DNA of 35,528 nt from an uncultured Erythrobacteraceae bacterium (GTDB lineage Bacteria; Pseudomonadota; Alphaproteobacteria; Sphingomonadales; Sphingomonadaceae), in NCBI GenBank assembly GCA_946482075.1, contig CAMLQG010000028.1, positions 1 through 35,528 of the forward strand, given 5' to 3'. Within the stretch, counting starts at the first letter, position 1. Each line of letters starts with the position of its first letter. Shown piece after piece: positions 18,444-34,389 of the stretch. Below the pieces are notes generated by a model. It saw only the letters and a program-made list of their open reading frames with translations. It was not told the DNA's origin and did no database searches. A program made the translations under genes and the position numbers.

Positions 18444-18531
18444 CGTTCGTCCTGAGCTTGTCGAAGGACCGCTTTTCGCTTTGCCGCCACTAGAAAAGAA
18501 GAACTGTGCTTCGACAAGCTCAGCACGAACG
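18444..18531. repeat. Inverted repeat upstream of the dehydrogenase gene
   Basis: Arms of 23 bases (18444-18466 and 18509-18531) pair with one mismatch, and share the CTGAGCTTGTCGAAG core with the repeat at 3887-3936. The element sits between the cysS 3' end and the dehydrogenase start, both on the minus strand. It probably ends cysS transcription or stabilises its mRNA. Confidence 0.8.
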
Positions 18532-18556: not shown

Positions 18557-20101
18557 TTAGCCCAGCTTCCATTCCCAGCCCAGCGGATCGCCGTCCATCA
18601 CCTCGATGCCCTGTGCGGCGAGTTCATCGCGCACCGCGTCGGACGCGGCGAAATCCTTCTCCTCTCGTGCTGCCCTGCGGCGGTCCATCGCGGCTTCGAC
18701 CTCGGCCTCGGCGATGGTGGCGGATTTGGGCCGGATGCGCAGATCGACGCGATCGAGAGAAAGCAGGTTCAACCCGAGCACACTATCCATCGCGGCAATC
18801 ACGGCCAATTTCTCGCCCGGATCAACCTTCTTCAGCGCCAGCACTTCGTCGAACACGGTCAGCGCCACCGAGGTATTGAGATCGTCCGAGACAGCCGCAT
18901 CGAAGCGCTCGATCAATCCGCTCATCCTCTCCGGCACGGGGAGGGGGACCGCCGCAGGCGGTGGAGGGGGCTGTCGGTCAGGCGCTGCATCCGGAGGAGA
19001 ACCCCCTCCACCATGCTGCGCATGGTCCCCCTCCCCGTGCCGGGGAGGATTGAGCTGCCCCACCGCCATCACCATCCGCTTCAGCCGCGTGAGCGCCGCG
19101 CCGAGACCATCCCACGAAAACTCCAGCTCGCTGCGGTAATGCGCCTGAAGGCACATCATGCGGTAGGCGAGCGGGTGGTAGCCCTTGTCTATCAGCAGCT
19201 GGAGGCGAAGGAATTCGCCCGAGCTCTTGCTCATCTTGCCCGAGCGTTCGACCAGGAAATTGTTGTGCATCCACAGCTTCGCGCCGCTGTTGCCGGGCAC
19301 GTCCAGCCCGTTGGTGCAGCAGAAGGCCTGGTTCTGCGCGATCTCGTTGGGATGATGGATCTCGCGATGGTCGATCCCGCCGGTGTGGATGTCGAACGGG
19401 AAGCCCAAGAGCTTGCCCGACATCACCGAGCATTCGAGATGCCAGCCCGGCGCGCCGCGGCCCCAGGGGGAATCCCATTCCATCTGTCGCGTCTCGCCTT
19501 CGGGCGTCCTGCGCCAGATCGCGAAATCGGCCGGGTGGCGCTTGCCTTCGACTTCATCAATGCGGCCTTCCGCATCTTCGTTTTCGCGAAGACGCGCAAG
19601 CCGGCCGTAATCGGCCACGGTCGAGACATCGAAATAGAGGCCGCTCTCCAGCTCGTAGCAATGCTTGTCCGCGATGCTCTTCGCGAATTCGATCATCGCC
19701 GGCACGTAATCCGTCGCGACCGACCATTCCATCGGCTGGCGGATGTTGAGCGCCTTGATATCGGCCCAGTATGCCTCGGTATAATGCCGGGCGATATCCC
19801 AGATCGACTGTGCGCGTTCGGCCGCCGCCTTCTCCAGCTTGTCCTCGCCCGCATCCGCGTCATCGGTCAGATGGCCGACATCGGTTATGTTGATGACGTG
19901 CTTGAGCGCATAGCCTTTCCAGCTCAGCGTGCGGCCGAGGATATCCGCGAAGACATAGGCCCGCATATTGCCGATATGGGGATAGTTGTAGACCGTCGGC
20001 CCGCAGGAATAGACGCGCGCCTCGCCCGGATGGACGGGCTCGAACGCTTCGAGCTGGCGGGTCAGGCTGTTGAACAGCGTCAGCGGCGCGGCATAGGTCA
20101 T
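18557..20101 (-). CDS. cysS: Cysteinyl-tRNA synthetase with in-frame palindromic insert
   Basis: CysRS charges tRNA-Cys. Class I motifs are HIGN (residues 42-45) and KMSKS (289-293), and the zinc ligands Cys33, Cys224, His249 and Glu253 are all present. The product has 514 residues, about 50 more than E. coli CysRS (461). Residues about 351-392 form a Gly- and Pro-rich loop (GGGGSPP, QPPPPP) encoded by the palindromic repeat at 18926-19051. It falls after the catalytic core, where the anticodon-side helices begin. Without it the length would be about 472. The frame is intact on both sides, so the protein is probably functional. Confidence 0.95.
   Translation of the reverse strand: MTYAAPLTLFNSLTRQLEAFEPVHPGEARVYSCGPTVYNYPHIGNMRAYVFADILGRTLSWKGYALKHVINITDVGHLTDDADAGEDKLEKAAAERAQSIWDIARHYTEAYWADIKALNIRQPMEWSVATDYVPAMIEFAKSIADKHCYELESGLYFDVSTVADYGRLARLRENEDAEGRIDEVEGKRHPADFAIWRRTPEGETRQMEWDSPWGRGAPGWHLECSVMSGKLLGFPFDIHTGGIDHREIHHPNEIAQNQAFCCTNGLDVPGNSGAKLWMHNNFLVERSGKMSKSSGEFLRLQLLIDKGYHPLAYRMMCLQAHYRSELEFSWDGLGAALTRLKRMVMAVGQLNPPRHGEGDHAQHGGGGSPPDAAPDRQPPPPPAAVPLPVPERMSGLIERFDAAVSDDLNTSVALTVFDEVLALKKVDPGEKLAVIAAMDSVLGLNLLSLDRVDLRIRPKSATIAEAEVEAAMDRRRAAREEKDFAASDAVRDELAAQGIEVMDGDPLGWEWKLG
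18926..19051. repeat. Palindromic element inside cysS
   Basis: About 126 bases consist of two inverted arms of about 50 bases around a 30-base centre. The arms share CCGGCACGGGGAGGGGGACC and GGTGGAGGGGG, and differ only at one base and in an inner mini-hairpin (GCC-GCA-GGC versus ATG-CGCAG-CAT). The length is 42 codons and adds no stop. Borders are estimated from the protein alignment I know of for CysRS, not from a pre-insertion allele. Confidence 0.85.
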
Positions 20102-20158: not shown

Positions 20159-20250
20159 CGTCATTGCGAGCGACCGACAGGTCGCGCGGCAATCCAGAGC
20201 GGCACAATCCGGCTCTGGATCGCCGCGGGCCTTCGGCCCTCGCGATGACG
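20159..20250. repeat. Palindromic repeat between cobT and cysS
   Basis: CGTCATTGCGAG and CAATCCAGAGC on the left pair with GCTCTGGATCGC and CGCGATGACG on the right. Each arm has an extra mini-hairpin (CGACC-GACA-GGTCG-like and GGGCC-TTC-GGCCC). It belongs to the same family as the elements near 29224 and 34305. It lies just after the cobT stop and probably separates it from cysS. Confidence 0.8.
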
Positions 20251-29184: not shown

Positions 29185-29338
29185 TTGGTCCTTATCCCTT
29201 TTGCATCCGTAGGTTGGTCCATTCGTCATTGCGAGGAGCGAAGCAACGAAGCAATCCAGAGCGGAACGAGAGTCGCTCTGGATTGCTTCGCTCCGCTCGC
29301 AATGACAAGGTTACGGATGAGAACGGGATAAGGACCAA
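29185..29338. repeat. Nested palindrome between AraC and ada genes
   Basis: The core (29224-29306) is the CGTCATTGCGAG...CAATCCAGAGC family. Outside it a second set of arms pairs: TTGGTCCTTATCCC (29185-29198) with the matching stretch ending at 29338, and CATCCGTA with TACGGATG. A 10-base direct repeat, CAACATCCTT, flanks the whole (29177-29186 and 29336-29345). It lies between convergent genes. Confidence 0.8.
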
Positions 29339-34304: not shown

Positions 34305-34389
34305 CGTCATTGCGAGGAGTAGAGCGACGAAGCAATCCAGAGCCCGGCGCGCAAACGCTCTGGATTGCTTCGCTCCGCTCGCAATGACG
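34305..34389. repeat. Palindromic repeat before the atp operon
   Basis: CGTCATTGCGAG (left) and CTCGCAATGACG (right), and CAATCCAGAGC with GCTCTGGATTG, form a hairpin of the same family as 20159-20250 and 29224-29306. It follows the protease gene by 15 bases and may end its transcript. Confidence 0.8.

Follow-up and report, generated by a model that had tools for sequence, protein, structure and literature searches.

The minus strand of the window (the whole 35,528-nt stretch of DNA analysed here) carries cysS at positions 18557..20101, a 514-residue open reading frame named as a cysteine–tRNA ligase by its profile matches to PF01406 and TIGR00435, the latter above its cut-off (357 versus 340 bits). 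The product scores below the cut-off of NF011108 (478 versus 780), and its C-terminal Pfam domain PF23493 lies slightly below threshold (22.3 versus 23). Within this gene, at 18924..19050, sequence, arms and fold define an inverted dimer of palindromic units, which we label ‘type A’, a name coined in this analysis. By position the element extends from codon 351 to codon 393, with no stop in the reading frame. Unit 1 (19002..19049, minus strand, delimited by sequence and fold) consists of an outer hairpin CCTCCCC..GGGGAGG and an inner hairpin GACCATGC..GCATGGTGGAGGGG, and unit 2 (18925..18970, plus strand, delimited by sequence and arm comparison) is its inverted counterpart; each unit in the window combines the outer with the inner hairpin, closing GACC..GGTGGAGGGG. 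The centre that separates them (18971..19001), delimited by sequence, fold and other copies, differs between copies. The 27-nt arms (18924-18950 and 19024-19050) are 96% complementary across a 73-nt spacer, and the coding strand of the element folds at −108.7 kcal/mol (z −11.1), a value equalled by none of 200 dinucleotide shuffles. Five of its six frames are open, and the one in use reads NPPRHGEGDHAQHGGGG...VPLPVPER. An earlier note on this DNA had described a palindromic repeat lying in frame within cysS, and the arms, the fold and the stop-free frame bear this out.

The same note had credited the repeat with 42 extra residues, which proved too many. Repeat-free CysS have a median length of 487 residues (146 open reading frames) against 514 in the window, and the net gain is only ~28 because the site has lost ~12 native residues, judged by eye against the nearest relative (L001). 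Native loop residues are also absent, again by eye, from L153, the other carrier of a type A dimer whose loop was measured, so that plain insertion would not suffice in either case and replacement or later deletion is needed. The loop spans 63–65 residues in these two carriers, compared with a median of 34 among the 137 repeat-free loops measured.

Pattern searches found no second copy of the element in the window, and nothing in the window reached the Rfam gathering score. The likeness that had been drawn between the element and the intergenic repeats of the window holds for layout, as those at 18444-18531, 29224-29306 and 34305-34389 are also inverted pairs, but fails for sequence, which is unlike type A. 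The first, with TTCGACAAGCTCAG arms (34 nt, 85% complementary), lies directly beyond the 3′ end of cysS, and similar arms occur in frame in TruB of locus L333. The other two are copies of a CGTCATTGCGAG..CGCTCGCAATGAC inverted repeat and form CGTC-REP-like dimers. A further CGTCATTGCGAG-type repeat (20159-20227) precedes the cysS start by ~60 nt; the gene thus holds one repeat and has others on either side.

In an AlphaFold model of the window CysS, residues 351-390 form coil between a helix at 330-350 and a helix at 391-404, and the lowest block confidences of the model (35 and 36) fall at residues 361-380. This low confidence is partly explained by a thin alignment, in which P0002 alone of 46 rows shares the insert, and the core segments 78-86 and 280-296 also score below 50. 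In alignments to solved relatives, the best-matching stretch breaks off at residue 339-349 in seven of eight cases (317 in 9yru), and the match to 3sp1 resumes at residue 399. Model and alignments support the proposed placement of the insert in a loop between the core and the C-terminal helices, where it is probably read through as a disordered, Pro/Gly-rich loop, and CysS with the insert would presumably be made and active. It is highly improbable that the insert is instead removed like an intein or skipped by the ribosome like a mobile bypassing element. Ribosomes are known to hop over some palindromic elements within genes, but the type A copies read in CysS and TruB stay in frame and stop-free, which skipping would make unnecessary (these sites were selected by that same property), and 42 residues are below the size of an intein.

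Repeat families at the CysS loop

We compared 166 CysS sequences from the window, the metagenome protein P0002 and three sets of 80, 60 and 24 loci, in line with the comparison of relatives that the earlier note had proposed. The 80 are the best 80 of 548 confirmed stretches and not a random sample; the 60 come from 157 genomes, 153 of which gave a match, with more distant CysS left out; and the 24 come from 29 type-A-carrying genomes after five distant sequences were dropped. Ten are duplicates by identical core, leaving 156. No recognised repeat occupies the site in 146 of the 166 (137 of the 156 after duplicate removal), L142 being labelled as without a repeat as it shows type B only by a looser pattern; the loop of L141, read directly, holds none.

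The type A dimer is present in three of the 166 (the window, P0002 and L153), a type A monomer in one (L004) and the outer hairpin alone in another (L014). P0002 has the same insert as the window, with 80% identity across 96% of the query region, whereas the L153 dimer belongs to another type A subfamily (GGTGGCATC..GATGACGGAGGGGG, versus GGGGGACC..GGTGGAGGGG in the window) and lies at the same codon, nine residues past a conserved RLKR. A second repeat, type B, occupies the loop in 13 of the 166 (12 of the 156). It runs CGTCATGCTGAACTTGTTTCAGCATCC .. ACCCTGAAACAAGTTCAGGGTGACG, is translated as RHAELVSAS...WTLKQVQGD, and looks like a member of the CGTC REPs, whose layout it shares in its CGTC end, its stem-loop units and its head-to-head dimer CGTCATGCTGAACTTGTTTCAGCATCC .. 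CAAGTTCAGGGTGACG. A third, type C, is found in two (TGTCTTCCCGGCGCAGGCCGGGATCC .. GGCCTGCGCCGGGGTGACG in L062; L108 was assigned by its peptide). The 60 sequences from the 157 genomes were drawn regardless of repeats and contain one each of types A, B and C (L153, L106 and L108), giving a base rate of ~3/60. Different repeat families have landed repeatedly in the CysS loop.

When the type B stretch of the L026 CysS was searched against ~5.8 billion proteins, 334 of 453 candidates matched at E ≤0.01, and among the matches listed (120 of the 334) all 120 carry both PF01406 and the RHAE..VQ peptide. In two CysS proteins, P0126 and P0106, the type B loops are further expanded (RHTDTQTRHADPNPRHADTQ and VVVVQGNVAGVQG, respectively), as if parts of the repeat had been duplicated within the loop. 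Loops without any repeat also vary, from 9 to 59 residues in the 137 measured, and the window insert might on that account be taken for an ordinary variable loop of sphingomonad CysS whose complementarity arose by chance. We give this practically no credence, as it is refuted by the copies in many genomes and is at odds with the 27-nt arms and a fold z-score of −11.

Type A in other genomes and genes

Type A is a dispersed, GC-rich palindrome with a unit of ~47 nt that often forms an inverted dimer of ~110–150 nt. Its dispersal was measured in the genomes of relatives, where ~47-nt matches to a single unit alone also occur. Type A DNA was matched in 13 of the first 16 genomes and in at least 74 of 149 genomes from the family of G012, a lower bound because five candidates were scored per genome; G012 itself (Novosphingobium aerophilum, a culturable species; the genome of L056) has 69 matches and carries type A in truB (L197). 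We assembled 154 type A sites from best hits (20 + 28 loci), 30 stretches around listed G012 hits and 60 hand-picked stretches, a non-random set that reduced to 150 unique and 143 usable sites. A copy was placed in a gene when it lay in frame, was free of stops and had flanks scoring as coding in that frame. Looking for the element inside other genes, as the earlier note had suggested, found it in frame at 23 of the 143 sites, and neither of the outcomes which that note had named as telling against it, a universal CysS loop without the palindrome and an element never found in genes, was observed.

The hosts are TruB (five copies), ValS, GlyS, TrmD and MetH (two each), and, with one copy each, LeuS, UvrC, LigA, LigD, Mfd, methylmalonyl-CoA mutase, an ImuB-like protein, HpnB, a SAM methyltransferase and a glycosyltransferase 25; a second, near-identical UvrC copy (L188) was collapsed. 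Family profiles flank the element on both sides in 21 of the 23, with support from one side only for the SAM methyltransferase and the glycosyltransferase 25 (L180 and L303). All three insertion phases are used, in a set that leaves out GlyS L196, where the motif came from another copy at the start of the frame, and ValS L174, which gave no motif. Homologues without the repeat were seen for CysS and, in a visual reading of 30 loci, for TruB. Enzymes that charge or modify tRNA hold 12 of the 23 in-gene copies and repair enzymes five, counts unadjusted for gene length or loop content. In general, such enzymes make up a few per cent of genes.

The type A peptide is also present in an MCM (P0004) and a carboxyltransferase (P0005), whose profiles span it, and, from protein-search output alone, in seven TruB (P0129 matching the full query), two Mur ligases, a PF00749 protein, a NuoF/formate-dehydrogenase-like protein and a phage terminase-like protein. 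The last of these, P0133, resembles the phage terminase large subunit, and prophages might carry the element. BchY (P0003) was not counted as an insertion; its peptide precedes the start of the profile (residue 81), so the annotated BchY start codon may be wrong. At L306, five type A matches lie close together, in a 1.2 kb stretch scored as non-coding. Dimers were found in genes at 23 of 112 sites and monomers at 0 of 31 (Fisher p 0.004), a contrast we do not press, since the sites derive from best hits and L004 is a monomer in a gene.

TruB was found in 98 of 99 genomes, and its loop was read in the 30 best loci, which are biased because the query carries the insert, and in five earlier ones, three of which coincide with the 30. 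Among the 30, type A is present in four (L309, L310, L312 and L318), type B in two (L315 and L328) and a CGTC repeat with GCGAAGGCGGG stems in two more (L319 and L320). A family with TTCGACA/TGTCGAA arms, resembling the window repeat at 18444-18531, occupies L333 and probably L323, and other GC-rich repeats occur in L313 and L325, where the arms match perfectly over 20 and 25 nt, and, more weakly, in L317 and L322; the remaining 16 loops hold no recognised repeat. The type A copy in L288 is in phase 1 and the four others are in phase 2. The TruB loop, like that of CysS, is occupied by different repeat families, and it is at these two loops that several families have been shown, the other genes having so far type A alone.

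Inheritance and age of the CysS inserts

We placed the repeats on a single-gene tree, built with FastTree from the CysS core, and counted changes by Fitch parsimony, which cannot separate gains from losses. The five type A carriers require five changes on five separate branches, the 13 type B carriers nine changes and the two type C carriers one. All labels taken jointly require 16 changes (15 with L142 corrected) against 18–21 in 200 label shuffles, which means that some carriers owe their repeat to shared ancestry. Node support is low near the window and P0002 (0.206 at the node joining P0002 and its neighbour, 0.85–0.88 around the window), and the two may therefore share a single insertion.

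In 12 type B carriers (L106 was excluded as a duplicate of L080), synonymous differences amount to 100/905 (11%) within the repeat arms, compared with 6221/17182 (36%) upstream and 2392/4803 (50%) downstream, and none of 333 core blocks of 15 codons is as low as the arms. The repeat DNA is thus either younger than the surrounding gene or kept alike independently of it.

These observations bear on whether the inserts are ancestral to the group and were lost in most lineages, in which case a common site would not mean recurrent insertion. Carriers agree in position within a few codons and some are clearly kin, the parsimony counts are blind to the direction of change, and node support is weak where it is decisive, all of which would suit such a history. 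Against it, a single site holds three repeat families, the changes number five for the five carriers of type A, nine for the 13 of type B and one for the two of type C, the window and L153 carry different type A subfamilies, the TruB copies of type A differ in phase, and the type B arms have diverged far less than the gene on either side. We consider ancestral presence followed by loss unlikely and favour recurrent insertion. The conservation of type B arm synonymous sites across genera, together with the very stable fold of the window element, could also indicate that the hairpin is kept in cysS for a function in RNA or DNA, such as pausing, mRNA stability or an RNase III or gyrase site, with the peptide incidental. 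We rate this as less probable still, since most of the compared CysS genes do without the element while many different genes have one, and a recent repeat insertion would equally give conserved arms. The reading we prefer, and hold to be very probably correct, is that a dispersed, non-autonomous type A palindrome entered a CysS loop without shifting the frame and is translated with the rest of the gene.

Known repeats, mobilisation and significance

Several known repeat classes resemble type A in part. The CGTC REPs of alphaproteobacteria (Di Nocera et al. 2013, PMC3733652), with an unpaired CGTC end, an 8–9 bp stem and a 4–5 nt loop, are likewise short palindromic units, mostly inverted dimers, that are mainly intergenic and sometimes genic, including in tRNA synthetases and TruB. 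Type A differs in that its units, which run TCCTCCCC..GGAGGGG, are longer, have no unpaired CGTC end and form two hairpins instead of a single stem. That paper reports that ‘E. lithoralis’ and S. alaskensis carry REPs within their genes for tRNA synthetase and tRNA pseudouridine synthase B, that different REPs lie at about the same recB site in two Xanthomonas, and that R. conorii truB holds a Rickettsia palindromic element (RPE), and states that its authors found no dedicated transposase for the CGTC REPs. The earlier note knew of no described equivalent in sphingomonads, but REPs inside their tRNA-synthetase genes are already published (PMC3733652), and the principle is not new. Among the titles and abstract openings of the top-ranked open papers, we found no publication that deals with the type A family or with the sharing of one loop by several repeat families.

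In mode of insertion type A resembles RPEs, palindromes of 105–146 bp that are in frame in many unrelated genes of an alphaproteobacterium (PMC2229807, PMC10969869, PMC3733652). Type A is similarly a dispersed palindrome of ~100–150 bp that lies in frame in several unrelated genes and is absent from homologues (absence being checked for CysS and TruB), a likeness by description and not by sequence, as type A is GC-rich and its hosts are sphingomonads. Bacterial MITEs such as ERIC, RU and Correia share with it a size of ~100–200 bp, a stem-loop structure, open frames and in-frame fusions (PMC2229807), but for type A, where filled sites were compared, no target-site duplication is readable, and the search for a parent transposon covered Y1 transposases. 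GTAG REPs, which have RAYT transposases, are also palindromic dimers and some are intragenic (PMC3733652), whereas type A unit ends lack the GTAG tag and no Y1 transposase was found in most of its carrier genomes. Specifically, the Y1 transposase profile PF01797 was found in none of 12 type-A-carrying genomes, G012 included (5 of 14 control genomes were positive), and in 10 of 19 genomes of a second list that shares G012 with the first, so that no REP-type transposase was found in 20 of the 30 carrier genomes. Instead of flanking the Y1 gene, as in RAYT-mobilised REPs, type A is near only one of ten Y1 loci (L343). Mobilisation by RAYT is therefore unsupported, and the scarcity of Y1 in carriers and near type A favours a non-autonomous element moved by another enzyme or by repair.

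Type A dimers have on average 4.87 of six frames open in genes (23 copies) and 4.94 elsewhere (86 copies), compared with 3.87 and 3.74 in shuffles. As in-gene and other copies are alike, openness is inherent to the element and not acquired in genes, and we make no claim that in-gene copies were selected for it. The element is bordered by T before and A after in 19 of the 22 in-gene copies with readable borders, as judged from filled sites. We propose that type A would insert as a non-autonomous element, copied and moved by some enzyme or by a repair process. Because the element leaves most frames open, insertions of fitting length could survive where a loop is permissive; selection would then remove those that damage genes, and most in-gene insertions would presumably be lost in this way. 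We can also imagine, though we think it doubtful, that across sphingomonads certain loops, few in number and belonging to enzymes of translation and DNA repair (CysS, TruB, ValS, GlyS, TrmD, UvrC, MetH and others), are shared palindrome landing sites through insertion preference or functional selection, beyond mere tolerance.

In-frame genic palindromes are best known from Rickettsia, which is obligately intracellular, and here they are common in culturable sphingomonads. That one loop of a given enzyme can hold repeats of different families raises the question of whether such insertions are neutral, selected or targeted, which natural pairs with and without the repeat make testable, as they do the question of why tRNA and repair enzymes host them.
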